Below, piece after piece: positions 5,149-33,385 of a stretch of 64,000 bases of DNA. Numbering within the stretch: the stretch's first letter is position 1; each line of letters starts with the position of its first letter. The DNA is taken from positions 1-64,000 of the IMG/VR virus record IMGVR_UViG_3300044630_001055. One strand, 5' to 3'. The position numbers and the translations under genes were made by a program. A model generated the notes under the pieces. It made no database searches, was not told where the DNA came from, and saw only the letters and a list, made by a program, of their open reading frames with translations. Source of the DNA: a virus.

Positions 5149-5408
5149 TATTCTTCTACCTTTAATCCTTTTGGTAATAATTCATTTAATAACTCACCAC
5201 AATCTCCACATAAAAATACTTCGATTGGAATAACCTCATCTTCAGTACCACCTGTCAATAATTTAGATGTTTTACGAAATGAAAACCCTTGTACAAAAAC
5301 CTCACCACCACAACCTTTACATTCGATTGGGTTTGTTTTTGTTAAATCTAATGGTGCATCCTCTTGTGGTTTTAATGCTTTACCATCTGCTCCTATAATT
5401 CCTGCCAT
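5148..5408 (-). CDS. Zinc-ribbon protein (paralogue 1)
   Basis: An 86-residue protein with two Cys-x2-Cys knuckles, IECKGCGGEVF and FLCGDCGELL, joined by SKLLTGGTEDEVIPIEV. The knuckles are spaced like a zinc ribbon. It is clearly related to the next gene (5410-5691), whose linker reads SKLLFGGTEDGIIPFDI, so the pair arose by tandem duplication. The stop overlaps the start of the gp62-like gene by one base. Function is unknown; a role as a polymerase or clamp-loader accessory or a transcription factor would fit the location (inference). Confidence 0.75.
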   Translation of the reverse strand: MAGIIGADGKALKPQEDAPLDLTKTNPIECKGCGGEVFVQGFSFRKTSKLLTGGTEDEVIPIEVFLCGDCGELLNELLPKGLKVEE

Positions 5409-5409
5409 A

Positions 5410-5691
5410 TTATTTATCCTTTTCTATTTTATCTTTAGCTTCCAAATCTTTAAGTTCTTTTGGTTTCAAATCACTTTGGTCCGTTCCACATTTTGCACAT
5501 TCTAAAATATCAAATGGAATAATTCCATCTTCAGTACCCCCAAAAAGTAATTTAGATACTTTTCTAATTTTTATTGTTGACTTAAATTTATCATGCCCAC
5601 AATTTTCACAAACAACCGATGTTGATTGTGAAATATCTACTCTAGGATATCCCATAGATTCGTTGGATGTTCCTCCCATATTATTTACCAT
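5410..5691 (-). CDS. Zinc-ribbon protein (paralogue 2)
   Basis: A 93-residue protein with Cys-x2-Cys pairs in VVCENCGHDKF and ILECAKCGTDQ and the shared linker SKLLFGGTEDGIIPFDI. It has a short N-terminal extension (MVNNMGGTSNESMGYPRVD) and a charged Lys/Glu/Asp tail that its neighbour lacks. The genes are one base apart. This pair sits exactly between the two clamp-loader subunits, where T4 has none. Confidence 0.75.
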   Translation of the reverse strand: MVNNMGGTSNESMGYPRVDISQSTSVVCENCGHDKFKSTIKIRKVSKLLFGGTEDGIIPFDILECAKCGTDQSDLKPKELKDLEAKDKIEKDK

Positions 5692-5694
5692 AAT

Positions 5695-6639
5695 CTATAA
5701 TGCGTTTAATATTTGTATAAGTGTTGCTGCCGCAGTTATTTCTTTATCAATTACCAATGCTGATTTATAAGCACCATCCCCCAATAAAAGAATTACATTA
5801 GCGGTATTTTCTCCAGCATATTCTTCCACTTTATCGTATAGTAAAGTGTATAGTTCCGTAAAATCAGATACCTTTGAATCAATTAATGCCTGTCTCACAT
5901 TCATATATTTGTTTCTCTTATCATCATTAGATTTTAAGATATCCAATACTTTGATTTTGTAATCGTTTTCTAATAGATTCTGAACATCTACTTTCAACTT
6001 TCCTTTGTTAGAGTTAAGTTGACAAGTATTGATAACCTTACGGATATCAGGATATGCAGAATCTATGATAGGTACTAAATCCTTAATATCAAATTCAATC
6101 TCTTCAGCTTTTAAGATATTACTGATTTGAATTGCCACATCTTTCTTTGTAGGTGGGATGATTTGGAATGTTTGGCATCTACTTTGGATAGGTTCAATTA
6201 CCTTCTCTACATAGTTACACGTTAGAATGAATCGGCAGTGTGCGGAAAACGTTTCCATTAAGTTACGCAAGATTGCCTGTGCATTGTGAGTCATATAATC
6301 AAACTCATCCAAAATGATAATCTTAAATGGTTTGAATCCCATAGAAGATGCAAAGTTGGTTACTTTGTTACGGACTGTATCTACGTTGTTCTCCGATGAT
6401 GCATTGATAATCATATAATCACATTCGATTGAATTTACGATTAACTTTGCTAATGTAGTTTTACCAGTACCAGCTCTACCATACAATAACAAATGTGGTA
6501 CATCTCCACTTTCTAAATAACCCTCTACTTTGGCTTTTAGGTGGTCATTACCTACATACTCCGATAACTTAGAGGGTCTGTGTCGTTCCACCCATAAGCT
6601 ATTGTTTACTTTTTCTTTTGTTTGTTCTATAAAAGACAT
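5695..6639 (-). CDS. 44: Clamp-loader ATPase subunit, gp44-like
   Basis: A 314-residue AAA+ protein of the RFC/gp44 type. The start WVERHRPSKLSEYVGN is the family N-terminal box. Walker A is GRAGTGKT (54-61), Walker B is IILDEFD (Asp111-Asp114), and the arginine-finger SRC motif is QSRCQTF (153-155). The protein hydrolyses ATP to open and load the sliding clamp encoded at 8780-9475. Length matches T4 gp44 (319). It is followed by the zinc-ribbon pair and the gp62-like subunit in one operon. Confidence 0.95.
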   Translation of the reverse strand: MSFIEQTKEKVNNSLWVERHRPSKLSEYVGNDHLKAKVEGYLESGDVPHLLLYGRAGTGKTTLAKLIVNSIECDYMIINASSENNVDTVRNKVTNFASSMGFKPFKIIILDEFDYMTHNAQAILRNLMETFSAHCRFILTCNYVEKVIEPIQSRCQTFQIIPPTKKDVAIQISNILKAEEIEFDIKDLVPIIDSAYPDIRKVINTCQLNSNKGKLKVDVQNLLENDYKIKVLDILKSNDDKRNKYMNVRQALIDSKVSDFTELYTLLYDKVEEYAGENTANVILLLGDGAYKSALVIDKEITAAATLIQILNAL

Positions 6640-7071: not shown

Positions 7072-7378
7072 GTGTAAATAATTTTTGTTTTTGTTGCATT
7101 TCTCTACCTTTCTCTGTCATCTCTCTTGCAAATATCTTAAACACCTTCCCATCATTATGGGTAAATGTTATATTTGAATGTTCATTATTAGATATAGTGA
7201 ATTGAACTTGTGGTTCATCATCACCCATATTTTCATCCGTCCATGCAAATACTTGTGGTTGGTTATCATCAAATTGAAAACACCACTCACACTCTTCGTA
7301 TTTATTTGGTTGTTTTATATTGATTGATTGTTTTGGAGAATATTCAATATCCTCAAATAACTCTAATTGTTTTCCCAT
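7055..7378 (-). CDS. Hypothetical protein (107 aa)
   Basis: A 107-residue acidic protein starting MGKQLELFEDIEYSP, with a Cys-x2-Cys (ECEWCF) and a predicted beta-rich middle (VQFTISNNEHSNITFTHNDG) followed by a charged C-terminal helix. I do not recognise it. It overlaps the dUTPase start by 17 nt and shares one base with the DruA-like stop, so it is translated within the gp45-gp44 operon. The N-terminal QLELF could be a clamp-binding peptide (inference, weak). Confidence 0.65.
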   Translation of the reverse strand: MGKQLELFEDIEYSPKQSINIKQPNKYEECEWCFQFDDNQPQVFAWTDENMGDDEPQVQFTISNNEHSNITFTHNDGKVFKIFAREMTEKGREMQQKQKLFTHESKN

Positions 7379-8592
7379 TATCGTCCTACTTCTTTTAAAT
7401 ATTTTGCTTTGAATTCATCCCAACCCATACCTATACCTTCAATATAGAATAGATGTTCGGGCTTAATTCTACCTTCATCATACAACTTAGAATATCTACT
7501 AATTGCATGTTTTTTCCACCATTTGTTAATGTAATCAATACCTTGCTCAAATTTAGGTTTCAATACCAACGCATCTTCTTCAATTTGCTTACATAAGAAC
7601 TCTCTTCCGTTTTCATACATCATAGCAAGATATACACCCCTCTTAAATCCGTGATGATATTCGTTTGCTTTGATACCACACTCTTTGAAGATTTGACCTA
7701 ATATCTTTTGTTTAATACCACTTACAGGTCCATTAGCTTCATAACCCATATTAGCACCATTACGAGCTCTTTCATCTGATATATTTTGCTTATACCATTC
7801 TGCTCTGTTTTCCTTTAACCATTGATGCCACGGGTCATAGAATTTATCATCCGGCTTTAAACTAATCTTACCAGCCGATTCTCCTAATGTTTTGAAAAGT
7901 GGAATACCATTATATTGTGAGTGAATACCATACAAAGATGTTGTACCAACTGCTACAAGAGTTTGACCATACTTTGTTTTCCAATGGTTTCTAACTTCAG
8001 GAACAGTAGTCATCATAGCAACTAACTTACCACCTAAGAAGTTATATCCTAATGGCTGTGTACATACAATAGTAGATGCTATTGTAGTATGATTTAACTT
8101 ACCATCAACAAACTTATTATCTTTACTCCAACCAATGAAATTATCTCTAACCCCCATTGAAGTAACATCAGATGCCAATGAAATTTGTCCCAACAACTTT
8201 CCACTCACTCTATCTTTCACATTAATCTTAACATTTCTACCAGGGTTTGCTGTAAAATCCATTGTGTGAATCATCCTACGGATTTGTGCCCATTTAGTAG
8301 ATTCTTTTGGATTATCATCTACAATCTCAACATAAGGGTCTAACGATTCAATTTCTTTTATCGTTAGCTCCTTATTGTTGATATCAGTTGGCTTCCATTG
8401 TAAATCATAATATGTAGCTATAAGGGATTTATCTTTAATCATTGTATCTCCCTGTAATTCTACCCATTTTTTGTATAGAGTTTGTTCCTCCACACTCATA
8501 GTAAGTAGGTAATCCATATTTTCTATTAGATTTGCCTTCTCTCTATCAAAGTCAAATACAGGTTTTTCCGGTTCACTATCCCAAAAGCTCAT
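7378..8592 (-). CDS. DruA-like (DUF4338) protein
   Basis: A 404-residue protein whose centre resembles DUF4338, the family of DruA from the Druantia defence system. Key matches are GKLLGQISLASD, then RDNFIGWS (149-156), a long helix-rich stretch, LGGKLVAMM, and VRNHWKTKYGQTLVAVGTT (200-218), which correspond to the DruA pattern RDRFIGWS ... HLLGRV ... W..RYG..PVLLETF. The N-terminal 100 residues and the C-terminal region (GIGMGWDEFKAKYLKEV) are not assigned. It is embedded in the replication operon between the 59-residue gene and the dUTPase block, which suggests a DNA-transaction role. The match is from memory of the family. Confidence 0.6.
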   Translation of the reverse strand: MSFWDSEPEKPVFDFDREKANLIENMDYLLTMSVEEQTLYKKWVELQGDTMIKDKSLIATYYDLQWKPTDINNKELTIKEIESLDPYVEIVDDNPKESTKWAQIRRMIHTMDFTANPGRNVKINVKDRVSGKLLGQISLASDVTSMGVRDNFIGWSKDNKFVDGKLNHTTIASTIVCTQPLGYNFLGGKLVAMMTTVPEVRNHWKTKYGQTLVAVGTTSLYGIHSQYNGIPLFKTLGESAGKISLKPDDKFYDPWHQWLKENRAEWYKQNISDERARNGANMGYEANGPVSGIKQKILGQIFKECGIKANEYHHGFKRGVYLAMMYENGREFLCKQIEEDALVLKPKFEQGIDYINKWWKKHAISRYSKLYDEGRIKPEHLFYIEGIGMGWDEFKAKYLKEVGR

Positions 8593-8779: not shown

Positions 8780-9475
8780 TTATTTAATCTCTACCAAATA
8801 ATAGTTCGATACATAATCTCCATCCGTAAATGATACGTGCGATAATCCTTTTGAAGAGATTTTCAATGAAGATGTTTTAGAACCTTTGTTAGCCATTAAG
8901 ATAGCTTTCAAATACTTTGCAGAAAATGCAATTGGTTCGATATCATTAGTTGCAGTTGAATCTACATCCAATGAAATTCGGTTGGAGTTAATTGAAGAAT
9001 ATCCTAAAATAATCTCACCCTTACCACCTTTGTGAATAAATGTAAATGTATCTGCATCCGATAATACACCTTTTGATTTGATGAACTTATTTACAAAGTC
9101 ATCATCCAAAGTGATTTCTGCATCAAACGGAGGAAGTGCTTTCAAATCAGGTACCGCAGGGATAACCGATGGTGCAGCTAACATATATTGTACTTTAGTT
9201 TTCTTATCGGAAAACTTTAATGCCCCAGTCACTTCTTCAATAGTGATAGCATCATCTAATACTGATAACAAACCTTTTAATTGTGATGTTGTGTAAATAC
9301 CAAACTCACCATTTGGGAAATCCGATTCGGCAACACTTACATCACCTAATAAAGTTTTATCATCTGAAATCATTCTTACCGATAAGTTATTCTCATCGGA
9401 TTTTACCATAACGGATTCAATCTCACCACCTAAGTTGTAACGACCAACGAAACCATCAAATTTGCTTCTGTTCAT
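8780..9475 (-). CDS. 45: DNA polymerase sliding clamp, gp45-like
   Basis: A 231-residue protein close in length to T4 gp45 (228). It has the alternating strand/helix pattern of clamp proteins: FGIYTTSQLKGLLSVLDDAITIEE in the first half corresponds to the gp45 segment VAIYDLNGFLGILSLVNDDAEI. It should form a trimeric ring that tethers the family B polymerase and also, in T4, activates late transcription. It is the first gene after the promoter at 9516-9547 and heads the clamp and clamp-loader operon. Confidence 0.9.
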   Translation of the reverse strand: MNRSKFDGFVGRYNLGGEIESVMVKSDENNLSVRMISDDKTLLGDVSVAESDFPNGEFGIYTTSQLKGLLSVLDDAITIEEVTGALKFSDKKTKVQYMLAAPSVIPAVPDLKALPPFDAEITLDDDFVNKFIKSKGVLSDADTFTFIHKGGKGEIILGYSSINSNRISLDVDSTATNDIEPIAFSAKYLKAILMANKGSKTSSLKISSKGLSHVSFTDGDYVSNYYLVEIK

Positions 9476-9515: not shown

Positions 9516-9547
9516 CAAAGATACAAATATTTTGTGAATATTCCAAC
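9516..9547 (-). promoter_or_regulatory. Bacteroidota-type promoter for the sliding-clamp operon
   Basis: Minus strand: TTGGAA (9541-9546), 17 nt, TATCTTTG (9516-9523). It gives a leader of about 35 nt before the gp45 ATG. The upstream box touches the stop codon of the DNA polymerase gene (9547-9549). Confidence 0.8.
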
Positions 9548-12069
9548 TAAAAAGAGAAAAACTTTTCAGCTGTTTTTTGTGAGGAAAGAACCTCACCCCA
9601 ACCCAATGCTCCATAGAAATCCTCTAACTTCTTTAGTAATTCCCTTTCAAAGATTTTATCATAATCGATGTAAGTTTTTACCAAATCCATAATTTGGTCT
9701 GAATCCTCATATCCCTTAAATCCCAACCCATCCAAACCATATGGATTTTGCTTTAGATATACCCACTTAATTTTATCACCATCTTTCATTGGTTCGCAGG
9801 TATTTTGTATATTAAAGTGAGCTATTAGTTGGTTATGTGCAATTGCTGCCTTAACGTGCGCCGGAGTTCCACTATTGAATTGAAACATTGCTCTATTATC
9901 CTTTTTCTTTGGTATGTATTTAGATAACTCTTTAACTGCTGAATTCTTAGCGATTGAAGTTACATCCATATTAACTAAATCCTTTTTGAAATCATGTATC
10001 TTATCAGTTAGTACATCTTCCGTTTCACCTTTTAGAATATCAATTAGGATACCACTCATAAACTTACGGAATTGTGCAGGATATGATGAACGAACCACAT
10101 CCAATCCTTTAACATCCAATCTATCGCATGGAATACCATTTTCCGCAATAATCCATTGTGCATATCGTTTCTTAGCAATCCAAATACCTGATTTAGATAC
10201 AAACTCTTTTTTGATTTGGAATCTATGTTTGGTTTTATCTACATTGAATACTCTTTCCGATAATACATCATAAAAGTTATTTAAGAAATCCTGCGTTTCA
10301 CCAGCAATTGTATCTACTTTCAATGCAATTTCAGTATCATTATCAGCTTTCCAATTCTCATATCTATGGTCTAATATAGGTACTGCTGAAAAGAATACCG
10401 AATCCGTATCAATGTATATGTTGAAATCCTGTCCGGTTGTTCCTAACTCTTTATTGTATTTAATATTAGCCATATCAGCCGTAGATTTAATTACAGTTTG
10501 ACCTGTTGTTGTTACAGCTTCTGCATTATCAACATCATAGAAACGGAACGCAGGTAATCCCAATACTCCATATAATGAGTTCAATAAAATCTTTTGTACT
10601 AACTGTCTTTTCTTATAGAATGCATATTTTTCTTTATCACCACTCTCACCAAATTGTTTTTCCAACTTACGGAACTCCACACGTTGAGAGAACCACAAAT
10701 CTAAAATATCAGGGATACAACCAGCTTTATCGGTTCTATACATTACACCATTAGATGATACCGAATACTTACTTTCTTCTAATAGTTTCTTTAAGTTTTC
10801 TTTTGATATCGTTCGGTTTCCAATAAAAAACTCATCAATTTCACCCTTCATATACTTTTGAGCATCCCAATTATCAATCTTAGCTACCTTTGTTTCAGGT
10901 GATATGTTAAGAGTCATAATGATGGATGGGTATAGTGATGTTAAGTCCAAGTCATATATCCAATCATACTTACCAACGATAGGTGCTTTTACATATGCCC
11001 CAATAAATTTCTCTTGGTCATTATCTCTTAATGCCTGCATCCTTTCTTGTCTATCCGCAGGTTTGTTAGGTGCTACAATGTTCTTTCTCTTTAAGTAAGT
11101 TAATAGTGCTCCCTCCAAATACTTTGATGAATAAACGAAATCTTCGTATGGAACGTGTCCAGCGTGGCAGATACCCCTAGCAGTATCAATGAATTGTAGT
11201 TTTGCATCCATATCTACAACTAACTGAACATCCACTAAGTTATACTCAATAAACTTTTCAATATCATCTCTGAATAGGATATCCAAATTACCTTTGTATT
11301 CAATCTTACCTCTACCCAACTCTCTCATTGCAATACTATCCAAACGATAGTTATCCAACTCCGTATATGTAAAGTTTTTGTACAATCCTAAATAATCCAA
11401 ATAGGATACCCCCGCCATAAAGAATCTCTTACGATATGGTGACCAGAAACATTCTCCAATAGGTGATAATCGATTAGCATGTTTTTGACCCAACACCCTC
11501 TTAATACGATTGTATAAATAAGGTGTATCAAAGTAATCAATGTTCCAACCTGTAACGATTGTGGGATTAATATACTCATATAAATCTAAGTATTTAAGTA
11601 TCATATCCCTCTCATCCACAAATGGAATTACAATTGCCGTATCGGTTTTCTTCTCCACCATCTTACCGCTCTTATCCATAATAAGGACATAGTATTGGTC
11701 AGCTGCTGAATCATGTAAACCAATTGCGGTTAATTCATTTTCAGCTTTTTCAGTATCCGGCAATCCCGTCTCCATCTCACACTCAATATCGTATGTTAAG
11801 ATAACGTGCCCCTCCGATGGAACATCTGAATCCGTATAAGTATCAACCAATACTCTAGTAGTTTCGGCAACATCTGATTCAAACAAATTAGGGTCATCTC
11901 CCTTAAATTTGTATATTTTTGTTAGTTTATCACCATATAAAGATGTGTAATCACCTCTTTCGGCTTTTTCATACGCATAACGAGTGTAAGGAAAACTTCT
12001 GTATCCCTGAACATCATCCCAAATGTGCACTAAATTCTTTTCTCTCTGATAATATACGTTCTGGTACAT
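9547..12069 (-). CDS. 43: Family B DNA polymerase, gp43-like
   Basis: An 840-residue replicative polymerase with proofreading. Exo I is LTYDIECEME (Asp94, Glu96), Exo II GWNIDYFDTP (176-181), Exo III YNLVDVQLV (about 276-284). Polymerase motif A is DLTSLYPSI (375-383), motif B KILLNSLYG (493-501) and motif C YIDTDSVF (Asp554, Asp556). It is somewhat shorter than T4 gp43 (898). It would replicate phage DNA with the gp45-like clamp encoded next to it. It is preceded within 14 nt by the glycosyltransferase gene and co-transcribed from the promoter near 15011-15042. Confidence 0.97.
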   Translation of the reverse strand: MYQNVYYQREKNLVHIWDDVQGYRSFPYTRYAYEKAERGDYTSLYGDKLTKIYKFKGDDPNLFESDVAETTRVLVDTYTDSDVPSEGHVILTYDIECEMETGLPDTEKAENELTAIGLHDSAADQYYVLIMDKSGKMVEKKTDTAIVIPFVDERDMILKYLDLYEYINPTIVTGWNIDYFDTPYLYNRIKRVLGQKHANRLSPIGECFWSPYRKRFFMAGVSYLDYLGLYKNFTYTELDNYRLDSIAMRELGRGKIEYKGNLDILFRDDIEKFIEYNLVDVQLVVDMDAKLQFIDTARGICHAGHVPYEDFVYSSKYLEGALLTYLKRKNIVAPNKPADRQERMQALRDNDQEKFIGAYVKAPIVGKYDWIYDLDLTSLYPSIIMTLNISPETKVAKIDNWDAQKYMKGEIDEFFIGNRTISKENLKKLLEESKYSVSSNGVMYRTDKAGCIPDILDLWFSQRVEFRKLEKQFGESGDKEKYAFYKKRQLVQKILLNSLYGVLGLPAFRFYDVDNAEAVTTTGQTVIKSTADMANIKYNKELGTTGQDFNIYIDTDSVFFSAVPILDHRYENWKADNDTEIALKVDTIAGETQDFLNNFYDVLSERVFNVDKTKHRFQIKKEFVSKSGIWIAKKRYAQWIIAENGIPCDRLDVKGLDVVRSSYPAQFRKFMSGILIDILKGETEDVLTDKIHDFKKDLVNMDVTSIAKNSAVKELSKYIPKKKDNRAMFQFNSGTPAHVKAAIAHNQLIAHFNIQNTCEPMKDGDKIKWVYLKQNPYGLDGLGFKGYEDSDQIMDLVKTYIDYDKIFERELLKKLEDFYGALGWGEVLSSQKTAEKFFSF

Positions 12070-15046: not shown

Positions 15047-15847
15047 TTACCAAAAATTTTCAGTACCTTCAGGTACTTCGTATGTTGTTAAATGATGTAC
15101 TACTTCTGTATTATAAGATGCAGTATCTTTGGGGTATGGCTTGATTTCATGCTTCAATCTACTCATCAAATCTTTCTTCTCCCGCTTATCTTGCGCAATT
15201 ATCTGAACGTACCTATGTTTTGGTGGTTCTTCTCTTCTCCAAAATTCTTTGTATCCTTCTTTACCAATTTCGTTTTGTAAATGTGCTAAATTACCACTAC
15301 CCCATAAAGAGAATACTGTCCTACTATGAATCCATTTGTAAGGGTCTTTACTTAATGAGATACCCCAATTTGGCATTAGTGCTATATCGGATGATAATCC
15401 TTGATAAATCCAATTTGTAGCTTGGTAGATACCACCTAAATGTGCTTGTCCATTGTCTGCATATGATAGGAGTACTTTGATTGCTTTATCGTTTTCTTTT
15501 AACCATTTGAATGTCTGTCCTAATGCAAATGATTCGATGTTAGAACCATAACCATCATCACAATATAGACGAGTTAGTTCTAAAATGTTATCTTTGGTTA
15601 ATCCTTCACAAATTGATGTTGATGCTTTTGCTCCCACTGGGAATCCATAAATTACACAACCTATTAATCTATCTCCATCAAATGTATTAGCATCATCGGA
15701 TTTGTAATAAATTCCTAATGCGTATCTACAAGCTGTCCAAGCGTGCGTATAGTGTTTCTTTACAATAATATCTTTTGCTATGTTTTTAGCTATTGGGTGA
15801 ACATACACCTTACTAACATCACAATAATCTTTTCCTTCTACTTTCAT
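15047..15847 (-). CDS. Mom-like DNA adenine-modification protein (copy A)
   Basis: A 266-residue protein with the Mom/GNAT-like pattern: early HYTHAWTACRYALGIYY (32-48), then LIGCVIYGFPVG (61-72), ELTRLYCDDGYGSN (90-103), and LLSYADNGQAHLGGIYQATNW (126-146). The last block fits the Mom signature of an Asp followed by G-H-x-G-x-I-Y-x-A. Mu Mom converts adenine to N6-methylcarbamoyl adenine and protects phage DNA from restriction. It is about 60% similar by eye to the gene at 16170-16943. The ATGA overlap (start 15847 against stop 15844) shows coupling to the lysine-rich protein upstream. Confidence 0.78.
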   Translation of the reverse strand: MKVEGKDYCDVSKVYVHPIAKNIAKDIIVKKHYTHAWTACRYALGIYYKSDDANTFDGDRLIGCVIYGFPVGAKASTSICEGLTKDNILELTRLYCDDGYGSNIESFALGQTFKWLKENDKAIKVLLSYADNGQAHLGGIYQATNWIYQGLSSDIALMPNWGISLSKDPYKWIHSRTVFSLWGSGNLAHLQNEIGKEGYKEFWRREEPPKHRYVQIIAQDKREKKDLMSRLKHEIKPYPKDTASYNTEVVHHLTTYEVPEGTENFW

Positions 15848-16152
15848 ATTTTACCAGAAGCCATCTTCTTCTTTATTGTCATTTTTTTTTTAGCTACCGG
15901 CTTTTTCTTTTTCTTCCGTTTAGCATCCAACTTAGCGAACGCATCATGTAACTCACCTAATTTACCTTCTGCTTTTGGTTTTTTTGGTGATTTGTTTTCT
16001 TTAAGATATTCAGCTGTCCATTTGATTTCAACCGATACAGGTCCATTTTGGAATTTGTTGGTATCATACTTCCAAACCATTGTACAATCCTCATCTTTAT
16101 AAACTCTTTCAAATTGTGTTGCGTTTGGTACTTCTATTAGTTTTTTAGCCAT
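15844..16152 (-). CDS. Small lysine-rich basic protein
   Basis: A 102-residue protein with an ordinary N-terminal half (FERVYKDEDCTMVWKYDTNK) and a very basic C-terminal half with KRKKKKKPVAKKKMTIKKK, resembling histone H1-like tails. It probably binds nucleic acid without sequence preference. It lies between two Mom-like genes and overlaps the downstream one by ATGA, so it may bring the modification enzyme to DNA (inference). The promoter at 16157-16188 places the start of transcription practically at its ATG. Confidence 0.7.
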   Translation of the reverse strand: MAKKLIEVPNATQFERVYKDEDCTMVWKYDTNKFQNGPVSVEIKWTAEYLKENKSPKKPKAEGKLGELHDAFAKLDAKRKKKKKPVAKKKMTIKKKMASGKI

Positions 16153-16156
16153 AGTA

Positions 16157-16188
16157 CAAAGTTACAAAATTAATTTGATATTTCCAAA
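16157..16188 (-). promoter_or_regulatory. Bacteroidota-type promoter inside the end of a Mom-like gene
   Basis: Minus strand: TTTGGAA (16182-16188), 17 nt, TAACTTTG (16157-16164). The upstream box is within the last codons of the gene ending at 16170. The predicted start lies at or within 2-3 nt of the ATG 16152-16150, giving a leaderless mRNA. Confidence 0.75.
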
Positions 16189-16943
16189 TTTACAGGTTCC
16201 ATTTTATGAACCTCATCAATGATATCTAACTCTACTTTTGGGTATGGGAATACCTCATGTTTAAGTGAGTTTATAAATGCTTTCTTTTCTTTCTTATCTT
16301 TGGTTAGAATATACACATATCTATGCTTGCGAGGTTCTCTCTTAATCCAAAATGGAGATGTTACCATTGTCTGAATTATCTTAGGGTCATTTGTTCCGTA
16401 TTTTACATAAGATGTTCTACTATGATGCCACTCATCATCTTCGTTCCATTTGAAACTCCAACTGTCACTCCATCTGATTTTGTTACCCTGATAAATCCAA
16501 TTGGTAGCTTGATATACTGTTCCTAAATGTCCAGCATTTGGGTCTGAATATGATATTAGTGCTTTGATTCTAGGTACATTCTTTCGTAACCATTCAAACG
16601 ATTGTCCAACAAACCAACTCTCAATGTTAGAACCATATCCATCAAATACAAATAATCGGGTCAATTCTAACACACCATCTCTTGGGAGTAACTCCGATAT
16701 CGATGCTCCCGCGTTTCTACCAACCGGGTCACCATAACATGCAACTCCAACTAATTGTTCGTTTACACCACTAAAGAAATTATGTTCATCTTCGGATATG
16801 TAAAACAAACCAATAGCATAGGATACCTTCGTCCATATCCCACTATAATGGTTATTTACAATGATATCCTTTGCTATGTTTTTGTTTATCTCTCTAATTG
16901 AAAATTTAGAGATATCGCAATATTGTTTACCTTCTATTTTCAT
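16170..16943 (-). CDS. Mom-like DNA adenine-modification protein (copy B)
   Basis: A 257-residue paralogue of copy A. It has HYSGIWTKVSYAIGLFY (32-48), LVGVACYGDPVG (64-75), LELTRLFVFDGYGSN (92-106) and ISYSDPNAGHLGTVYQATNW (130-149). The Asp134, Gly-His and Gly-x-x-Tyr elements fit the Mom family. Copy A keeps the same order but differs in the loops after the Gln-Ala-Thr-Asn-Trp segment, where target or substrate choice may lie. The start overlaps the HTH gene stop by ATGA (16943/16940). Two copies in one phage cassette suggest two different modifications or targets (inference). Confidence 0.78.
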   Translation of the reverse strand: MKIEGKQYCDISKFSIREINKNIAKDIIVNNHYSGIWTKVSYAIGLFYISEDEHNFFSGVNEQLVGVACYGDPVGRNAGASISELLPRDGVLELTRLFVFDGYGSNIESWFVGQSFEWLRKNVPRIKALISYSDPNAGHLGTVYQATNWIYQGNKIRWSDSWSFKWNEDDEWHHSRTSYVKYGTNDPKIIQTMVTSPFWIKREPRKHRYVYILTKDKKEKKAFINSLKHEVFPYPKVELDIIDEVHKMEPVNLEISN

Positions 16944-20385: not shown

Positions 20386-21783
20386 TTATCCTAGTCCAGA
20401 TACCGGCTTTACTGCCCCACCCAACGGCATAGTATCCATATATTTTTTGTGTAATAATTGCCTTTCTTCTTCAGCTCCACTATTACTTTCTTTCCGTGCT
20501 AATATCCCATCTGCTGAATTTGCATCAAATACTTCAATTATTCCTTTATTAGTATCCATTTTAGTTGGGAATGTGATACCATCCATACCAAAACGATTTT
20601 TCATAACGTGAACCCTAGCAGTATTGTTTAGTTTATCCTTTGATTTTCTACTAACACTCATAATAAAATCTGCATTCATTACTTTAGCGTATGAATCTGC
20701 AATCTTATCAGCTTCAATAACCTCTGAATCTATACCACTTCTATTTGTTTGTGATGCTGTCCAAATTGGAATACCTAACTCACCACCCATTCCTCTCAAT
20801 TCAATATACACACCACCTTGCTCCCCATATGTACTATCATTCTTATTTGAGTGTGATAGTAGTAAATCGGCATAATCTACAATGATTAAATCGGGTTTAT
20901 TACCAGCTGCTGTCATCTTTTCAATGTGAGCTTCAATCTTTTTGGATGATACACCCTTTGGTGGGAAATACTTAATCAATAACTTACCTGCTAATGATTT
21001 TATTTTTCTATGTACTAAATCTCTATTATCAACCAAATCCGCAGATGGGATACTAGTAAAGATTGTATCGTATCTCTCACCTACATAGTTTTCGGATAGT
21101 TCCAATGAGTAGTGAACAACACTCTTACCTGCTTTAACTGCAGCCGCTCCGATTGCTGCAAGAACCCAAGTCTTACCAACCCCAGAAGGTGCCACTACAA
21201 CCCCTAACTCACCCGGTCCTAAACCTCCGTTCATTAATTCGGTAATAACCTCCCACGGAGTAGCAATGGTATCTCTTTTCTCATCCTCAATACGAGCTAT
21301 GTAATCCAATAGATAATCATGTCCCAAATCGGTTTCAATACCAACTTTCATTGCCTTATCTACTAAATCCTTAATCCTATCGTAATTACCCGCTTTGAGT
21401 AAATCTACCGATTGTATAATTACCTCTTTTAGATTCTGATTGATACAAAATGATGAGAACTCCTTCTTTACATAATCCGTATCATCTTGTCCAACTTGGG
21501 TATAAACTACTTTAAGTTGCTCGATTATGGTTTTTTGTAAAGATGGATTATCTACTTTGGATATTTCTGATTTGAATACATCCAATGTAGGTTCTTTCTT
21601 AAACTCATCAAAATAATCTTTAATTGTTTCAACTATCCATTTATTAGCTTCCGATTCAAAAAACTTCTTATGTATAATATCACTTAACGAATCCAAAAGT
21701 TTAGCATCCGTCAATAATACAGATATTACTTTTGATTGAAACGATTGACCGTATTTAGATAATGTATCTAATGCTTCTGCCAT
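20386..21783 (-). CDS. 41: Replicative DNA helicase, gp41-like (DnaB family)
   Basis: A 465-residue helicase close to T4 gp41 (475). The N-terminal 150 residues are helical; the RecA-like core has Walker A APSGVGKT (198-205), Walker B LIIVDYADLL, and downstream motifs PIWTASQTNRSG and IMSVSRKSKD. It unwinds DNA ahead of the polymerase as a hexamer. No gp61-like primase is recognisable in this window. It follows the RNase H gene by 6 nt in the operon that starts with gp32. Confidence 0.93.
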   Translation of the reverse strand: MAEALDTLSKYGQSFQSKVISVLLTDAKLLDSLSDIIHKKFFESEANKWIVETIKDYFDEFKKEPTLDVFKSEISKVDNPSLQKTIIEQLKVVYTQVGQDDTDYVKKEFSSFCINQNLKEVIIQSVDLLKAGNYDRIKDLVDKAMKVGIETDLGHDYLLDYIARIEDEKRDTIATPWEVITELMNGGLGPGELGVVVAPSGVGKTWVLAAIGAAAVKAGKSVVHYSLELSENYVGERYDTIFTSIPSADLVDNRDLVHRKIKSLAGKLLIKYFPPKGVSSKKIEAHIEKMTAAGNKPDLIIVDYADLLLSHSNKNDSTYGEQGGVYIELRGMGGELGIPIWTASQTNRSGIDSEVIEADKIADSYAKVMNADFIMSVSRKSKDKLNNTARVHVMKNRFGMDGITFPTKMDTNKGIIEVFDANSADGILARKESNSGAEEERQLLHKKYMDTMPLGGAVKPVSGLG

Positions 21784-21789
21784 TTATTT

Positions 21790-22833
21790 TTATTTAACTA
21801 TAATGTTTGAAAATGTTGATTTTAACCAATCGTTAATATCACTCCAATTTTGTAGGATTTTGTATTTAGCGCCTACCTTAAAGAACTCCATCTTTTCAAA
21901 CTTCTTATTTGGTTCTCTAAACCTATCTAAAATTTTCATCTTTTCGTTAGTGGAAATTATAGGTTCGGCTAATTGCATTAATTGTTGATTTCTTAAAATA
22001 ACATCTTTATTAGCTACAATATCAGAATATAATTTAGATTCTTTGATTTTAGTTTCCGCAATATCAAAAAACTCATCAAATTCTATCTTTCTATCTTCAC
22101 TTAACTCTGGGAATCTTTTTAGTACTGTCTTTAATCCACACCCCTTTACACCCGGAATATTATCCGAATTATCCCCATCCAACGTTCTGAATAGAAGTAG
22201 ATTTTGTGGATATAAGCCATACTCTTCAAATACCGCTTTCCTATCATATTTTTTCTTTTTAGTTGGAGAATAGATTGTGACCTTATCATTTACCAATTGT
22301 AGGAAATCCTTATCAGTAGATACGATTACACACTCTTCATCCTCACCCAATAGTTGTGTAGTGATGTGTCCGATAACATCATCTGCTTCGATACCATCAT
22401 ACACCATTGTTGTAACAGGCAAACTATCTAATATATCCACTAACCAAACGAATTGGCGTTTCATAGATACCTGCTCATCTTCTTGGGTCATCATTTCGGG
22501 GTATTGTCTATTAACTCTGAAACGATTCTTACCTCTTTCAGATTTATACCCCTCATAAATCTTTTTTCTACCATTAGAACCACCCTTACCATCAAAAGTA
22601 AGGATAACTCTTGTAGGGTTAAATTGGCGAATGCCAAACCCTATTGATTTCAATGAACCAATAACTCCACCCGTATGGTCACCATCCTCATTCATTGTAG
22701 GATTGGTTGTCCAACTACGGATGAAGGTATTTAGTCCATCAATGATAAGAACTCTACTATTTCTCACTCTTTGAGAGTTTGAGTCGTGTTCCGTTTCTAC
22801 TTCATTGAGTAATTTTTTGTAAAGTTCTTTCAT
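21790..22833 (-). CDS. rnh: 5'-3' exonuclease/RNase H (FEN-like)
   Basis: A 347-residue member of the T4 RNase H/FEN family. Acidic metal-binding motifs are RVLIIDGLNTFIRSW, VILTFDGKGGSNGR with KIYEGYKSERG, DGIEADDVIGHI, and VIVSTDKDFLQLV, followed by the helix-hairpin-helix LDGDNSDNIPGVKGCGLKT. It would remove RNA primers and 5' flaps. It has about 26 extra residues (MKELYKKLLNEVETEHD) before the first motif compared with T4 RNase H (305). Confidence 0.94.
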   Translation of the reverse strand: MKELYKKLLNEVETEHDSNSQRVRNSRVLIIDGLNTFIRSWTTNPTMNEDGDHTGGVIGSLKSIGFGIRQFNPTRVILTFDGKGGSNGRKKIYEGYKSERGKNRFRVNRQYPEMMTQEDEQVSMKRQFVWLVDILDSLPVTTMVYDGIEADDVIGHITTQLLGEDEECVIVSTDKDFLQLVNDKVTIYSPTKKKKYDRKAVFEEYGLYPQNLLLFRTLDGDNSDNIPGVKGCGLKTVLKRFPELSEDRKIEFDEFFDIAETKIKESKLYSDIVANKDVILRNQQLMQLAEPIISTNEKMKILDRFREPNKKFEKMEFFKVGAKYKILQNWSDINDWLKSTFSNIIVK

Positions 22834-22856: not shown

Positions 22857-23978
22857 TTAATCTCCAATAACTTCCGAATCTACAAATAGTTCATCTGAAT
22901 CGATTGTACTACCCTTTTTGTATTGTAAGATGGTTGCCTCACAAATACGTTTGTAGATTTGGTCTTTAACTGATTGATTAGTTTCCAATAATTCAGGAAA
23001 ATCCTTTGATTGGAACTTAATTTCCTCACCGGTATCAGTGTCCACATAAGTGTACCAAGCACCAGATTGTTTAAGTAAGCTATTGTCTTTCATACTACCC
23101 AACCAAGCTCCGTAGTTATCAATACCTCTATCAAAGAAGATATCAAAATCCGCCGTTCGTAATGGTGGGCCCATACGATTCTTTACAACCTGACAACGAA
23201 CTTTAATTCCCACAATTTGGTCATTTCCATTCTTGTCTTTTGCTTTAATTGTACCCATACCCTTCAATCGTAAACGAACCGAAGCATGAAAAGCGATTGC
23301 TTTACCACCAGAAGTTGTCCACGGGTCAGAGAATGGCATAGCGTTCATCTTCTGTCTTAATTGATTTGTGAAAACCAAAGTGATTTTCTGTCTACCAATT
23401 AAGTTAGTGATTTTACGCATTGCTTTTGAGATAATGATTGCCTTATCGGTAGCGTATCCGTCTTTATCGTAATCAGCATCCATCTCCTTTTTAGTTGATG
23501 CTGCTGCTACTGAATCCACTACGATAGTTACATACTTATCCTTTGATGCAACTCTCACTTTTTCGATAATCGTTTCGGTGTACTCAAAACACTCTTCCAC
23601 AGTTTCAGCTGCTACATAAAGCATTTTAGATACATCTACTCCAATTGCGTTTAAGAACTCCGCACTTACTGCATTTTCAGTATCAATTAATACTGCCAAT
23701 CCACCTAACTTTTGCGTTTCGGCAAGAAGGTGGGCGGATAAGAGCGATTTACCACTCTGCTCCAACCCAGTAACTTCGGTAATTCTACCAACAGGCAATC
23801 CACCATAAGGGCGATTTGAGATAGCCACATCCAACAATGATGCTCCAGTTGATACCCAACCTTCTACATTTGTAGGTGCTTCATCCGAATCCAAAAAGAA
23901 TGCCACTTTCTGGTCTTTAGATTGTTTGTTTAGAGTTTCAGCAAGTATATCTGCTAACTCAATTTCCTTTTTTGCCAT
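22857..23978 (-). CDS. uvsX: UvsX-like RecA recombinase
   Basis: A 373-residue strand-exchange protein. Walker A is GLEQSGKS (71-78), Walker B is VTIVVDSVAAAS, and the following block MRKITNLIGRQKITLVFTNQ is the RecA/UvsX L1-proximal core. It should form filaments on ssDNA for recombination-dependent replication and repair, working with the gp32-like SSB encoded 12 nt upstream. Length is close to T4 UvsX (391). Confidence 0.93.
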   Translation of the reverse strand: MAKKEIELADILAETLNKQSKDQKVAFFLDSDEAPTNVEGWVSTGASLLDVAISNRPYGGLPVGRITEVTGLEQSGKSLLSAHLLAETQKLGGLAVLIDTENAVSAEFLNAIGVDVSKMLYVAAETVEECFEYTETIIEKVRVASKDKYVTIVVDSVAAASTKKEMDADYDKDGYATDKAIIISKAMRKITNLIGRQKITLVFTNQLRQKMNAMPFSDPWTTSGGKAIAFHASVRLRLKGMGTIKAKDKNGNDQIVGIKVRCQVVKNRMGPPLRTADFDIFFDRGIDNYGAWLGSMKDNSLLKQSGAWYTYVDTDTGEEIKFQSKDFPELLETNQSVKDQIYKRICEATILQYKKGSTIDSDELFVDSEVIGD

Positions 23979-23989
23979 AATAACTTATT

Positions 23990-24826
23990 TTAGTTGTTGA
24001 AAAGGTCATCAAATGCAGATGTTACATCATCTAATTTCTTAGTTGGTGCTGGTGCTTCCGTTACTGCCTCCACTTTCGGTGTTGGTGTTGGAATTACCGA
24101 TTCCGCAGGTGATGCCGTTGAAGATAATGTTTGAGCCGATACTGATGTTTCTAATTCATCATCACCGGTTGCAGATGGGTTTAACCATCCCTCTAACACA
24201 CTTTTCAACTCTGAATAAGTTAATTCTTGATAAAGGTCTGTGATTTCCATTTGGCTTGTAAGGAATTTCTTAGTTTCCTCCGCTGATTCTACCAATGGTG
24301 TTTCTTTTGGTTTTACTCTGATTGTTGTAACAGGGTATGATGTACCACTATCTTCAGCCGATACAATCTCAACAGTGATATCTCTACCAGTTGTTGGGTC
24401 AGTAATATCGCCGTAATCTGGGTCAGCCATATATCCTAAGATTTCTTGGTAAACAGTCTTACCAAATCCCCAAAAACGAACACCTTCTCCTTCTTCACCT
24501 CTTACCAATACAGGTACGAATGTACGAAGTTTTGGCTCCATCTTTTTCGCTGCTTTCCAATCTTCCTTATCACCCATACGCTTTAATTTGTCAGCGAACT
24601 CAACAATTGGGTCAGGTCTGCCAAATGACATTGGAGATAAATAAGATTTGTTGTTAATGTTGTAATGAAAATAAAGTTCGATAAAAGGATTTTCTTCGTT
24701 GAACTTATATGGGACTAATCGGATTTGATGTTTGCCCGGTGCTGGTTTCCACAATTCTACTTTCTTCGATGTGGTTGATTGCAGTTTGTTCAGTCTGCCT
24801 CTGATAGCATCTAAATTAATAGCCAT
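23990..24826 (-). CDS. 32: ssDNA-binding protein, gp32-like
   Basis: A 278-residue SSB with the gp32 layout. The basic N-terminus (RGRLNKLQSTTSKKVELW) is where gp32 has its cooperativity arm. The core has GKHQIRLVPYK and IELYFHYNI, and the acidic C-terminal tail KLDDVTSAFDDLFNN would contact replication proteins. The zinc-binding His/Cys cluster of T4 gp32 is not visible. It is the first gene of the recombination and replication operon (gp32, UvsX, RNase H, gp41) and has two tandem promoters upstream. Confidence 0.85.
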   Translation of the reverse strand: MAINLDAIRGRLNKLQSTTSKKVELWKPAPGKHQIRLVPYKFNEENPFIELYFHYNINNKSYLSPMSFGRPDPIVEFADKLKRMGDKEDWKAAKKMEPKLRTFVPVLVRGEEGEGVRFWGFGKTVYQEILGYMADPDYGDITDPTTGRDITVEIVSAEDSGTSYPVTTIRVKPKETPLVESAEETKKFLTSQMEITDLYQELTYSELKSVLEGWLNPSATGDDELETSVSAQTLSSTASPAESVIPTPTPKVEAVTEAPAPTKKLDDVTSAFDDLFNN

Positions 24827-27134: not shown

Positions 27135-27560
27135 TTAATTAGTGGTTGTAACTTCTTCTTTTTCCTCACCAAATGATATTACCTCAAAAACACGAGTTTG
27201 TATCTTTTTAGTTCCGGTTGCGTTTGTTAATATGATTGAATTCTTAAACTTAGGCCAATCAATTACAAAATTGGAGTTCAATACCCCACCATTCTCCTCT
27301 TTAACTAATTCGTTAAGAGCATTAATTGTGTATAAGGTATTAGATTCCTTTTTTCTATGTATTAATATAGTGTTTTCTAACGGAGTTGCCGGTTGAAAAG
27401 CTGTATCTATGTTGTATGTAATAAACAATTCCTCTAAATTGGATTTGTTTTGTAGAATATAAATATAGTTGTAAACTATATGATATATTTCTCTAATTTG
27501 TTGTAGAGTGTTTTGTAACTCTTCTTTTGTTGTAAACGTGCAAAGTAACTGTGTCTTCAT
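27135..27560 (-). CDS. Hypothetical protein (141 aa)
   Basis: A 141-residue protein beginning MKTQLLCTFTTKEELQNTLQ, with IYHIVYNYIYILQNKSNLEE and a beta-rich second half (IQTRVFEVISFGEE). No catalytic motif or membrane helix is clear. It is the first gene after the late-type box at 27585-27597 and lies 14 nt before the endolysin, so the two are probably expressed together late. The function is unknown. Confidence 0.65.
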   Translation of the reverse strand: MKTQLLCTFTTKEELQNTLQQIREIYHIVYNYIYILQNKSNLEELFITYNIDTAFQPATPLENTILIHRKKESNTLYTINALNELVKEENGGVLNSNFVIDWPKFKNSIILTNATGTKKIQTRVFEVISFGEEKEEVTTTN

Positions 27561-30592: not shown

Positions 30593-31222
30593 TTATTTAA
30601 ATTTAAATCCGGTCAATTTTTCTATTTGTGTAATCGGTACTTCGTTATTTTGGAATCCATCGGCCGGTGATAAATCATTGTTGAATAGATATGCGTGCCA
30701 TTTTCCTGCTACCTGAACTACTTTCCAGCATTGTGTAGGAACTGATACTAACCCTATTTTCTTTGCTTCACCAACTGAACCACTCCATACTCTTACTTTT
30801 GAACTAATCATTGCCCAATTTCGGGTTGCAGTTTCTAATGATTTCCAATCCCCTGCATTTAATCTATGAGTTTGTGCTACCATATTACTAAAATAGAAAC
30901 ATTCATCCTGCACCGCTTGAGTTTGACAAAGGTTGTCCGCCGCCGGCATTACATGTCCTCTATCGTATCCACTTTTTAGGTAATAAAATGCAATATTAGT
31001 TTCATCTACCAATTGTGGGTCAGGTTTAAAGTTATCTTTTCTTTTTAGGGGTGTTGGACAACCTACCATTGCTTTTGTTGTTTCCCATTCCACTAATACT
31101 GGGTATCTTTTTGATTTACTGAAGTGTGTTGTGTAGTTTGTGTGTTTGATTACTACGATGTCTTGTGCTCTTACAACAATTAATGTAAAAAAGAACAATA
31201 GAGATAAACCTAATTTTTTCAT
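30593..31222 (-). CDS. Secreted DNA/RNA non-specific endonuclease
   Basis: A 209-residue NucA/Serratia-type nuclease. Residues 1-19 are a signal peptide (MKKLGLSLLFFFTLIVVRA) with likely cleavage before Gln20, a site pattern common in Bacteroidota. The catalytic block is YDRGHVMPAADN (87-97, with the general-base His90), and YFSNMVAQTHRLNAGDW supplies the metal-binding Asn. It cleaves single- and double-stranded DNA and RNA after export to the periplasm or outside. It has its own late-type promoter (31244-31257). Confidence 0.93.
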   Translation of the reverse strand: MKKLGLSLLFFFTLIVVRAQDIVVIKHTNYTTHFSKSKRYPVLVEWETTKAMVGCPTPLKRKDNFKPDPQLVDETNIAFYYLKSGYDRGHVMPAADNLCQTQAVQDECFYFSNMVAQTHRLNAGDWKSLETATRNWAMISSKVRVWSGSVGEAKKIGLVSVPTQCWKVVQVAGKWHAYLFNNDLSPADGFQNNEVPITQIEKLTGFKFK

Positions 31223-31263: not shown

Positions 31264-32550
31264 CTACACTTTTCCATAATCCAAACCCCAACTTGCTTTG
31301 ATTGGAAACCCACCCTCTTCAATGATTTCTTTCAAATCCTTAATCTTATTCTTATCCACATTCGTAGGAACATCAAATAGAAACGAGTCATAAGTATATA
31401 AACTAAATCCGATTCCACTATTTCTAATGTAATCTAATATCTTTTTCATCTTATCAATGTTCATTTCAGTCTCTAAGGCTTGTAGAAGATAGTTAAACAC
31501 CTTTTGTGGATTTGAACCCTCTATCCAACTTAGGGGTATTCTACGATATTTGGTTTGTAGGTATCCGTTTTGTTGTGTTTCAATCCATAATCCATCTATG
31601 TAATCAGCTACTGCGTTTAGATATGGAATTTGACGGAATGTATCATCGATTCCCCCATATAGTAATTGGAATGTAATACCCTTACCCTCATTTACATCAC
31701 ATCCATATTGTTCGGCTAACCACTCATGCACATTACCATCCGGCATATCAAACTTAATCAACTTACCAATAAGACGGGGGTGGTATGCATTATAATCCAT
31801 TTGTAGGAATATCCCATCGGAAACGAAACACTCCCTACTACCATCCGATTTATTGAGAGCGGCATAGTTCACACCACCATGTCGATTTGAAGGTCTACCC
31901 GTTACCGTAAATGGATTGTATTCCGTAAACACTTTACTATCATCTGTCAAATGTCTAATAGCTTGATTCCATCTATCAGTAAATTTTTTCCTATCGACCC
32001 GAATCCCATATCCCTCCATTTCTGAAAGTGTGGGTATGAATGTTTGGTTATACCATCGATATGTGTTAGAATCTGAATTATTGGAATAGTATTTAATGAA
32101 TTGTGGTTCTATTACTTCCACAATCTTCATTAAAGGAATGGATTGAATTAAGTCATCTCTATACCCTTTATGAGTTAGCGTTGATAATAAAGGATTTAAA
32201 GGTGCCTCATAATCAATAACCTCACCTGTCCTTACAAAGTATTCCGAATCTACATCATATAGATTTACCGAAACATAAAGAGAGTGTAATATTTTTTTCT
32301 TTTGGAATACCCACTTCTTACCATTGGTATTTAGTATCGATTTAACGTCCGATACTTTGATTGTAAGAGCATCTGCGTGTTGAATTGGTAAAACATACAA
32401 CTCATCCAAACATCGTACCAGTATGAGAGAAAGATTAGTATGAAGAGGATGCTTTGAGTTATCAACCCATAGTGGATACCATATAGATACTTCGGTTTCC
32501 AGCTTATCTTTCAACCAATTTACTTCCTCTATGGATTCTATAACTTTCAT
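31264..32550 (-). CDS. Compact family A DNA polymerase homologue, thumb missing
   Basis: A 428-residue protein from the ATG at 32550. An upstream in-frame ATG (32577) lies inside the promoter, so I reject it. Family A hallmarks in order: FIPTLSEMEGYGIRVD (171-186, entry to the polymerase domain), TGRPSN (217-222), motif A MDYNAYHPRL (Asp252), VHEWLAE (274-280), motif B KGITFQLLYGG (Lys290, Phe294, Tyr298), YRRIPL, and motif C YTYDSFLFDV (Asp388). Both catalytic aspartates remain, but Glu710 of Pol I is His257 and His-Asp-Glu of motif C is Tyr-Asp-Ser. Only about 30 residues separate the entry motif from TGR, so the thumb is absent. The N-terminal 150 residues look like a degenerate exonuclease domain. 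Confidence 0.8.
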   Translation of the reverse strand: MKVIESIEEVNWLKDKLETEVSIWYPLWVDNSKHPLHTNLSLILVRCLDELYVLPIQHADALTIKVSDVKSILNTNGKKWVFQKKKILHSLYVSVNLYDVDSEYFVRTGEVIDYEAPLNPLLSTLTHKGYRDDLIQSIPLMKIVEVIEPQFIKYYSNNSDSNTYRWYNQTFIPTLSEMEGYGIRVDRKKFTDRWNQAIRHLTDDSKVFTEYNPFTVTGRPSNRHGGVNYAALNKSDGSRECFVSDGIFLQMDYNAYHPRLIGKLIKFDMPDGNVHEWLAEQYGCDVNEGKGITFQLLYGGIDDTFRQIPYLNAVADYIDGLWIETQQNGYLQTKYRRIPLSWIEGSNPQKVFNYLLQALETEMNIDKMKKILDYIRNSGIGFSLYTYDSFLFDVPTNVDKNKIKDLKEIIEEGGFPIKASWGLDYGKV

Positions 32551-32554
32551 TTTA

Positions 32555-32586
32555 CAAAGATACAAAAAAAATCCCACAATTCCAAA
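32555..32586 (-). promoter_or_regulatory. Bacteroidota-type promoter for the family A polymerase gene
   Basis: Minus strand: TTTGGAA (32580-32586), 17 nt, TATCTTTG (32555-32562). The ATG at 32550-32548 is 5 nt after the TAnnTTTG box, so the transcript would be leaderless. The promoter decides the start codon of that gene. Confidence 0.8.
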
Positions 32587-32600
32587 TGGAAAAGTGGGAG

Positions 32601-32980
32601 TGGTGGAGATGGCGGGATTCGAACCCGCGTCCAGATAAGTTTCTAATGTAAATCGTTCACAAGTTTAGGATAGTGTTTTATCTTACTAACACTCCAAAAG
32701 AATTGGGGCCGAATGGTTAATTCAGCAGATTCCACCAATCCATTTTAAGTTTGGATAAACTTAAATGTTCACTTCTTTTTAAATCCCATGAGTGATACGG
32801 GAACGATTAGGCAGCTACTGCGTAATCGAAAGACTCCATCCATGCCATAGCATCTCCGAAAGTCATTGTAGATAATTCTACGTCTGCACTTATTGTTTGA
32901 TAGGTCTTCAAAGGTTTCCATCTAACCTTACTTGCATCAATACAACCAGTCTTCATACCTGTCAAAAGCCGGTCATCCCC
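32601..32980 (-). ncRNA. ssrA: tmRNA (transfer-messenger RNA)
   Basis: A 380-nt one-piece tmRNA. The 5' end GGGGATGACC pairs with the 3' CATCTCC (seven acceptor pairs, one G-U). The T arm GGGTTCGAATCCC is canonical and the 3' end is encoded as A plus CCA (32601-32604). The tag frame ends in GAT TAC GCA GTA GCT GCC TAA (stop 32807-32809), encoding ...FDYAVAA. The likely resume codon is GGA at 32857-32855, giving a 16-residue encoded tag GDAMAWMESFDYAVAA, longer than the usual nine or so of Bacteroidota. It has a dedicated promoter at 33000-33031. It should rescue stalled ribosomes and tag incomplete proteins for proteolysis. Confidence 0.93.
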
Positions 32981-32999: not shown

Positions 33000-33031
33000 C
33001 AAATATACGATAAATATTTGTAATTTCCAAA
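33000..33031 (-). promoter_or_regulatory. Bacteroidota-type promoter for tmRNA
   Basis: Minus strand: TTTGGAA (33025-33031), 17 nt, TATATTTG (33000-33007). Transcription would begin about 13 nt upstream of the mature tmRNA 5' end, leaving a short RNase P-removed leader. The upstream box abuts the stop codon at 33032. Confidence 0.8.
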
Positions 33032-33385
33032 TTAATACTTATAAAATTGTAAATAGTTTAAAAGATATATTAATATTCCCTTCATTTTGTGTGAGGCTAG
33101 TTTAACTGATTTAAAATTTGATTCTTTTATTTGTTCAATAGTTCCATTTAATCTCCAATCTAATGTAATAGTTGTGTAGAAGGAATTATTGTTTAAATTA
33201 GAATATGTATTTAAATTAATTTCATATATGACAGAATTTGTATCATTTGTTTTTTGAGCAAAATATCTAGTTATGTACCCTCTCTTATAATCAGTTTCCG
33301 AAATTATAGGAATGTGTGTATTAATTTTTTTTAAATTATAATCATCTGGTAATTGTACTATTTTTTTATATCTAGTTATATCCAT
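33032..33385 (-). CDS. Hypothetical protein at end of baseplate operon (117 aa)
   Basis: A 117-residue protein starting MDITRYKKIVQLPDDYNLKK, with TTITLDWRLNGTIEQIKESN and a C-terminal helix GILIYLLNYLQFYKY. I do not recognise it. It is 14 nt after the baseplate hub gene and is the last gene of the tail operon that starts at 41685, so a tail role is likely by position only. Confidence 0.6.
   Translation of the reverse strand: MDITRYKKIVQLPDDYNLKKINTHIPIISETDYKRGYITRYFAQKTNDTNSVIYEINLNTYSNLNNNSFYTTITLDWRLNGTIEQIKESNFKSVKLASHKMKGILIYLLNYLQFYKY

Follow-up and report, generated by a model that had tools for sequence, protein, structure and literature searches.

We analyzed a 64,000-nucleotide stretch of DNA (the window; positions 1 to 64,000 of IMG/VR virus record IMGVR_UViG_3300044630_001055), part of an 80.7-kb virus record from a freshwater phage. 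All genes named below by product lie on its minus strand, as do the promoter and codons of the gene on which this work centers. That gene, at 31264-32550, encodes 428 amino acids, with an ATG start codon at 32550, coding sequence at 31267-32550 and a stop codon at 31264-31266, and the open reading frame given by an earlier sequence-only reading was thereby borne out. We refer to its product as the short (thumbless) family A polymerase, or short PolA. Directly upstream sits a tmRNA gene of separate function (32601-32980; Rfam RF00023, 99.6 bits), with its own promoter at 33000-33031 and a 26-residue tag, ADVELSTMTFGDAMAWMESFDYAVAA; most members of the closest clade have it ahead of short PolA, and it was absent from the other clades scanned. 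Farther upstream is a conserved, probably tail-related gene (33032-33385), the product of which has 117 amino acids here and mostly 190 to 230 in other clades. Directly downstream of short PolA, a gene at 30593-31222 encodes a nonspecific DNA/RNA endonuclease with a signal-peptide-like N terminus, and a related gene is present in about 23 of the 53 loci of the closest clade.

A leaderless Bacteroidetes-type promoter, TTTGG-N19-TATCTTTG (32555-32586), ends four bases before the short PolA ATG. Exact TTTG-N20-TANNTTTG sites, which we take to be the Bacteroidetes promoter form, occur five times in the window, always on the coding strand and always between genes; they precede the tmRNA gene, short PolA, the single-strand DNA-binding protein gene (twice) and a gene at 15844-16152. 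A looser version of the pattern was enriched, with 20 occurrences versus 5.8 in shuffled sequence. This enrichment, together with the promoter type common to the two genes, supports early, leaderless expression of short PolA alongside the single-strand DNA-binding protein. The early-type expression proposed from the sequence alone is supported within the closest clade, most members of which keep the promoter, but it does not extend to the whole family: the clade of Microcystis phage Mel-JY01 lacks the promoter, and its short PolA gene usually abuts or overlaps the upstream gene. Elsewhere in the window, two near-tandem genes for Mom-like DNA modification proteins (15047-16943) flank a small gene that has its own leaderless promoter.

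The gene neighborhood is conserved across clades

The conserved gene order runs from a gp25-like gene and a hub-like gene through the upstream gene, with a product of 117 to 220 amino acids, and short PolA to a 137-amino-acid protein that we call c3, a single-strand DNA-binding protein (SSB), a RecA/UvsX recombinase, a 5' nuclease and DnaB, and the block from the hub gene to DnaB, short PolA included, was found in all clades. In the window, c3 is a 141-amino-acid protein (27135-27560), followed by a gp32-like SSB (23990-24826), the promoter of which is of the same type as that of short PolA, a UvsX/RecA-like recombinase (22857-23978), a stand-alone Pol I-type 5'-3' nuclease (FEN; 21790-22833) and a DnaB-like replicative helicase (20386-21783). 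FEN matches Pfam 5_3_exonuc_N (E = 3.7e-33) and is a homologue of the N-terminal Pol I domain; it lies downstream of short PolA on the same strand in 22 of 23 records, the exception being a contig (G006) that ends ~8.6 kb downstream. It also occurs in very many phages without short PolA, so that the pairing is one-sided. A DnaG-like primase is encoded by many relatives, across all clades.

The linkage of c3 is equally tight: none of the 75 loci with enough flanking sequence lacked it (28/28, 29/29 and 18/18 had the gene), and it was found in the same six phage records as short PolA. Its predicted structure (pLDDT, 89.6) had no fold match in the PDB. The protein carries the motif HRKKxSNTxYTINALN.

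The same genomes encode a separate replicase

As the sequence-only reading had noted, the phage has a complete family B system, comprising a replicative DNA polymerase (PolB; 9547-12069), a sliding clamp that serves as its processivity factor (8780-9475) and a clamp loader encoded by two genes (4699-5148 and 5695-6639, together spanning 4699-6639). Between the clamp and clamp-loader genes lies a gene for a DruA-like protein (7378-8592; Pfam Druantia DruA, E = 1.5e-20), and a protein encoded at 2959-3510 bears a weak likeness to the anti-CBASS protein Acb1 (24.6 bits, against a cutoff of 27) and to 2'-5' RNA ligases.

Of 26 records, 15 contained PolB, and six from the clade of Flavobacterium phage vB_FspM_immuto contained a separate long PolA (frames of 778 to 791 amino acids). 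PolB was absent from records G006 and G009 to G011, which means little because these contigs end ~8 to 18 kb downstream of short PolA and PolB lies 9 to 28 kb downstream of it elsewhere. Phage immuto itself (MW353176.1), which is grown in the laboratory on Flavobacterium sp. LMO8, carries a separate 777-amino-acid PolA (gene 71) in place of PolB, a natural replicase swap in which short PolA and its whole neighborhood have been kept. In a 484-kb uncultured phage (LR756508.1), short PolA is accompanied by pieces of PolB and a PolIII-alpha-like gene. The presence of PolB or a long PolA in the same genomes rules out short PolA as the sole replicase, and the fact that it accompanies either one indicates that it is accessory.

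Short PolA belongs to family A

The 428-amino-acid protein matched the PHROG family phrog_17, "DNA polymerase" (E = 5e-13), and a profile built from 113 relatives matched Klenow fragment among PDB sequences (E = 6e-7). A search with the Pfam DNA_pol_A profile, which had been proposed as a check, gave a divided answer: 56 of the 113 relatives matched it individually (E ≤ 0.01), whereas the protein from the window had no significant match to any Pfam family when searched alone. Its below-cutoff matches to a Pfam SAM-like integrase family and to filamin in the PDB were set aside as chance. The similarity to family A polymerases, seen with phrog_17, with the Klenow profile match and with half of the relatives in Pfam, is not a chance one, and the short PolA group is a variant within family A rather than a separate kind of enzyme.

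In IMG/VR, we collected 75 close loci of short PolA, 574 found by profile, 312 of the immuto clade and 109 of the Mel-JY01 clade (the sets overlap), yet only six annotated phage records carry the gene. Hundreds of related phages keep short PolA beside repair and recombination genes. The reading frame was open in all 273 full-length relatives, and the ratio dN/dS was ~0.17 (0.14 in the polymerase part and 0.19 in the N-terminal part). With an invariant active site as well, these values rule out a decayed PolA pseudogene. A recent duplication of the phage's own long PolA could be ruled out for immuto, where the short PolA profile matches the long PolA far more weakly than it matches E. coli Pol I. 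No close bacterial relatives turned up in the close-relative scan, and a profile scan gave nine matches, all on metagenome-assembled contigs of 4 to 105 kb from unrelated taxa; these are likely viral contigs, and we rejected a bacterial origin.

The predicted fold has a palm and no thumb

An AlphaFold model made with the family alignment (pLDDT, 94.9; pTM, 0.92) had Klenow fragments as its best Foldseek matches among solved structures (1kfd, E = 4.5e-18), with TM scores of 0.74 to 0.79 normalized by query length (1d8y, 0.79), and normal PolA proteins stood in the top rows of a BFVD fold search, among the matches listed. Superposition on Klenow had been suggested as a check on the family A reading, which stood to fall with a fold lacking the palm or with freely varying aspartates; a palm-bearing Klenow fold was what we found, and both catalytic aspartates proved invariant. 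The predicted order of domains is an exonuclease-like domain, the palm entry helix, a minimal insertion at the site of the thumb, and then palm and fingers.

The thumb is a standard part of right-hand polymerases. In short PolA its remnant spans residues 187 to 216 (31903-31992), with two short helices (187-193 and 195-200), and exactly 30 residues separate Asp186 of GIRVD from Thr217 of TGRPSN, where about 30 had been counted before. Measured from Glu179 to Arg219, the spacing is 39 residues here and 22 to 42 across the family, compared with ~127 in E. coli Pol I, so that the description of the enzyme as thumbless agrees with both the predicted structure and the family-wide lengths. The fingers are also shorter, with 37 to 44 residues between Asp252 and Lys290 across the family versus 52 in Pol I.

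Residues ~1 to 160 (32071-32550) form a 3'-5' exonuclease-like domain. When positions were assigned with the guidance of secondary structure, none of the Pol I carboxylates Asp355, Glu357, Asp424 and Asp501 appeared to be retained; the conserved DxE of strand 1 was absent by this mapping, and Lys84/Lys85 would occupy the position of Asp424. The proofreading domain thus appears to be degenerate. It keeps an invariant His34, His58 and Asp99.

The active site is invariant and carries specific replacements

Alignment to the actual E. coli Pol I sequence upheld all of the earlier residue assignments. Arg668, Asp705, His734, Lys758, Phe762, Tyr766, Asn845, Gln849 and Asp882 of Pol I correspond to Arg219, Asp252, His275, Lys290, Phe294, Tyr298, Asn353, Gln357 and Asp388, respectively, so that both catalytic aspartates and the O-helix triad are in place. 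The replacements were likewise as described: Glu710 by His257, Arg754 (which in Pol I contacts the triphosphate) by Val286, His881 by Tyr387 and Glu883 by Ser389, the motif C sequence HDE having become YDS.

Eleven positions were 100% invariant in the 273 full-length relatives, among which identities fall to ~25%. They include the motif A aspartate, Asp252 (31795-31797); His257, which replaces the Glu710 sugar gate (31780-31782); the O-helix residues Lys290, Phe294 and Tyr298 (31657-31683), with Gly299; Arg219 (31894-31896); Gln357 and Glu360; and Tyr387 with the motif C aspartate, Asp388 (31387-31389), in a YD[SA] context. The nine relatives on metagenome-assembled contigs agree at every one of these positions that their sequence includes. 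Invariance at such low identities, together with the dN/dS ratio, indicates that His257 and Tyr387 are specific features of a functional subfamily that is conserved and probably catalytic, not signs of decay. The invariant histidine at the sugar gate suggests an altered discrimination between sugars, so that, for example, modified deoxynucleoside triphosphates or a primer ending in a ribonucleotide might be accepted.

Discussion

Short PolA forms a subfamily of family A that is conserved among phages. Its palm active site is complete, its fingers are reduced, its thumb is missing and its proofreading domain is degenerate. Purifying selection maintains the gene beside those for SSB, RecA, DnaB and a 5' nuclease of the Pol I type, and the phages that carry it copy their genomes with another polymerase. 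The proposal that it is a live nucleotidyltransferase is well supported, since the aspartates and O-helix residues are invariant in the 273 relatives, selection is purifying and the predicted Klenow fold includes a palm; we infer that it is likely a catalytically live, distributive DNA polymerase. With the duplex-holding part missing, it would dissociate after adding only a few nucleotides, unless held in place by a partner.

We consider it most probable, at roughly 0.5, that short PolA is a distributive gap-filling or recombination polymerase that pairs with the separately encoded 5' nuclease to make up a "split Pol I." The stand-alone nuclease would remove RNA primers or flaps, and short PolA would fill the short gaps left at Okazaki junctions and the gaps in recombination intermediates coated with SSB and UvsX. 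This is the simplest role for an enzyme expected to bind duplex weakly without a thumb while a nearby gene supplies the 5' nuclease of Pol I. The Klenow fold, the invariant catalytic set, the dN/dS values of 0.14 to 0.19, the missing thumb and the separate replicase all speak for it, as do the linkage to FEN, the block order common to all clades, the promoter type common with SSB and the presence of a primase elsewhere in relatives. The proposal assumes that catalysis would survive the loss of the thumb, and Arg754 is lost as well. The gene neighborhood indicates a shared pathway at best, and tail genes adjoin short PolA too. The pairing with FEN is one-sided, and c3, whose linkage to short PolA is just as close, may be the true partner instead.

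Several other roles can be weighed against the same evidence. The loss of the proofreading carboxylates, the thumb and part of the fingers would also suit a mutagenic enzyme for translesion synthesis or mismatch extension, analogous to the Y family, with an open, permissive site able to bypass lesions or modified bases; Klenow enzymes with the thumb deleted bind DNA less tightly and make more frameshifts, and the phage carries the two Mom-like modification genes. Against this, the O helix and nucleotide pocket are conserved more strictly than a merely permissive enzyme would need, and the gene is kept in every member seen with the block, although bypass polymerases tend to be optional. We regard this role as unlikely, if the strongest of the competitors. 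Less probable still is a template-independent transferase or primer maker, akin to terminal transferase or primase. A weak grip on duplex and a histidine sugar gate would suit single-stranded DNA ends, and SSB and UvsX are neighbors, but the residues that contact template and primer in Pol I (Arg219, Asn353 and Gln357) are conserved, no dedicated element for single-strand binding or de novo initiation is visible, and a separate DnaG-like primase is available in relatives from every clade. Among the jobs put forward in the sequence-only reading, primer synthesis is disfavored by that primase, and end or gap repair best fits the SSB-RecA-FEN-DnaB neighborhood.

The histidine gate, together with a YD[SA] motif C whose xDS/xDA form recalls T7-type RNA polymerases, could instead mark an enzyme that incorporates ribonucleotides or copies RNA, for RNA patching or RNA end repair. 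Histidine is still bulky, and it could bond with Tyr298 as glutamate does and so keep the gate shut; moreover, short PolA resembles DNA polymerases more than RNA polymerases in both sequence and fold, and the neighbors are DNA recombination genes. We give this reading the same low weight as the transferase. The loss of Arg754 might even point to a catalytically dead structural factor, such as a scaffold or a loader acting on recombination intermediates, but a scaffold would not need metal ligands and O-helix residues that stay invariant in 273 proteins with identities down to ~25%, and we think this very improbable.

A bolder form of the gap-filling proposal can be offered tentatively, at lower odds than the proposal itself. 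Short PolA would represent a widespread thumbless, His-gated class of family A, its grip on DNA provided in trans by c3 or the 5' nuclease, in a split, multisubunit Pol I that repairs Okazaki and recombination gaps in aquatic phages. A conserved thumbless family that has every catalytic residue and a changed sugar gate makes two questions directly testable: how minimal a Pol I can be and still synthesize DNA, and by what other means the duplex is gripped and the sugar selected. A small enzyme of use in biotechnology could also come of it. That the replicase is PolB in most of these phages and PolA in immuto, with short PolA kept throughout, points to an accessory polymerase in its own right, important to phages that abound in fresh and marine waters and with a role that the T4 paradigm does not describe.

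Among known enzymes, the Klenow fragment of E. coli Pol I and the large fragments of Taq and Bst polymerases are like short PolA in fold, with an exonuclease-like domain, palm and fingers, and Klenow has in common with it the pair of aspartates, Arg668, Lys758, Phe762, Tyr766, Asn845 and Gln849. Short PolA differs in having 428 residues rather than 605, no thumb, shorter fingers and no fused 5' nuclease, in the changes of Glu710 to His, His881 to Tyr and Glu883 to Ser or Ala, and in the loss of Arg754 and the exonuclease carboxylates. T4 gp43 and the other family B replicases, a type found in the same phage, belong to an unrelated family and carry out the main replication. We found no published description of thumbless family A enzymes in the open-access literature. 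The PolA proteins of virioplankton and phrog_17 are, like short PolA, phage family A polymerases and have Phe at position 762; those of virioplankton are full-length replicative enzymes classified by residue 762, in a study that mentions neither the thumb nor residue 710 (Nasko et al. 2018, PMC6302109). The closest annotated counterparts are two full-length homologues. Gene 1 of Flavobacterium phage vB_FspM_immuto (441 amino acids, 27% identity) has all of the signature residues and the same gene neighborhood and is annotated only as "DNA polymerase family A," with no mention of the thumbless form. WWT39333.1 of Microcystis phage Mel-JY01 (408 amino acids, "hypothetical protein") also has the signature residues and adjoins SSB, RecA, a 5' nuclease annotated as "DNA polymerase I" and a helicase; it differs in that its thumb remnant is shorter still (22 residues in its clade) and that its gene overlaps the upstream gene and has no promoter of its own.
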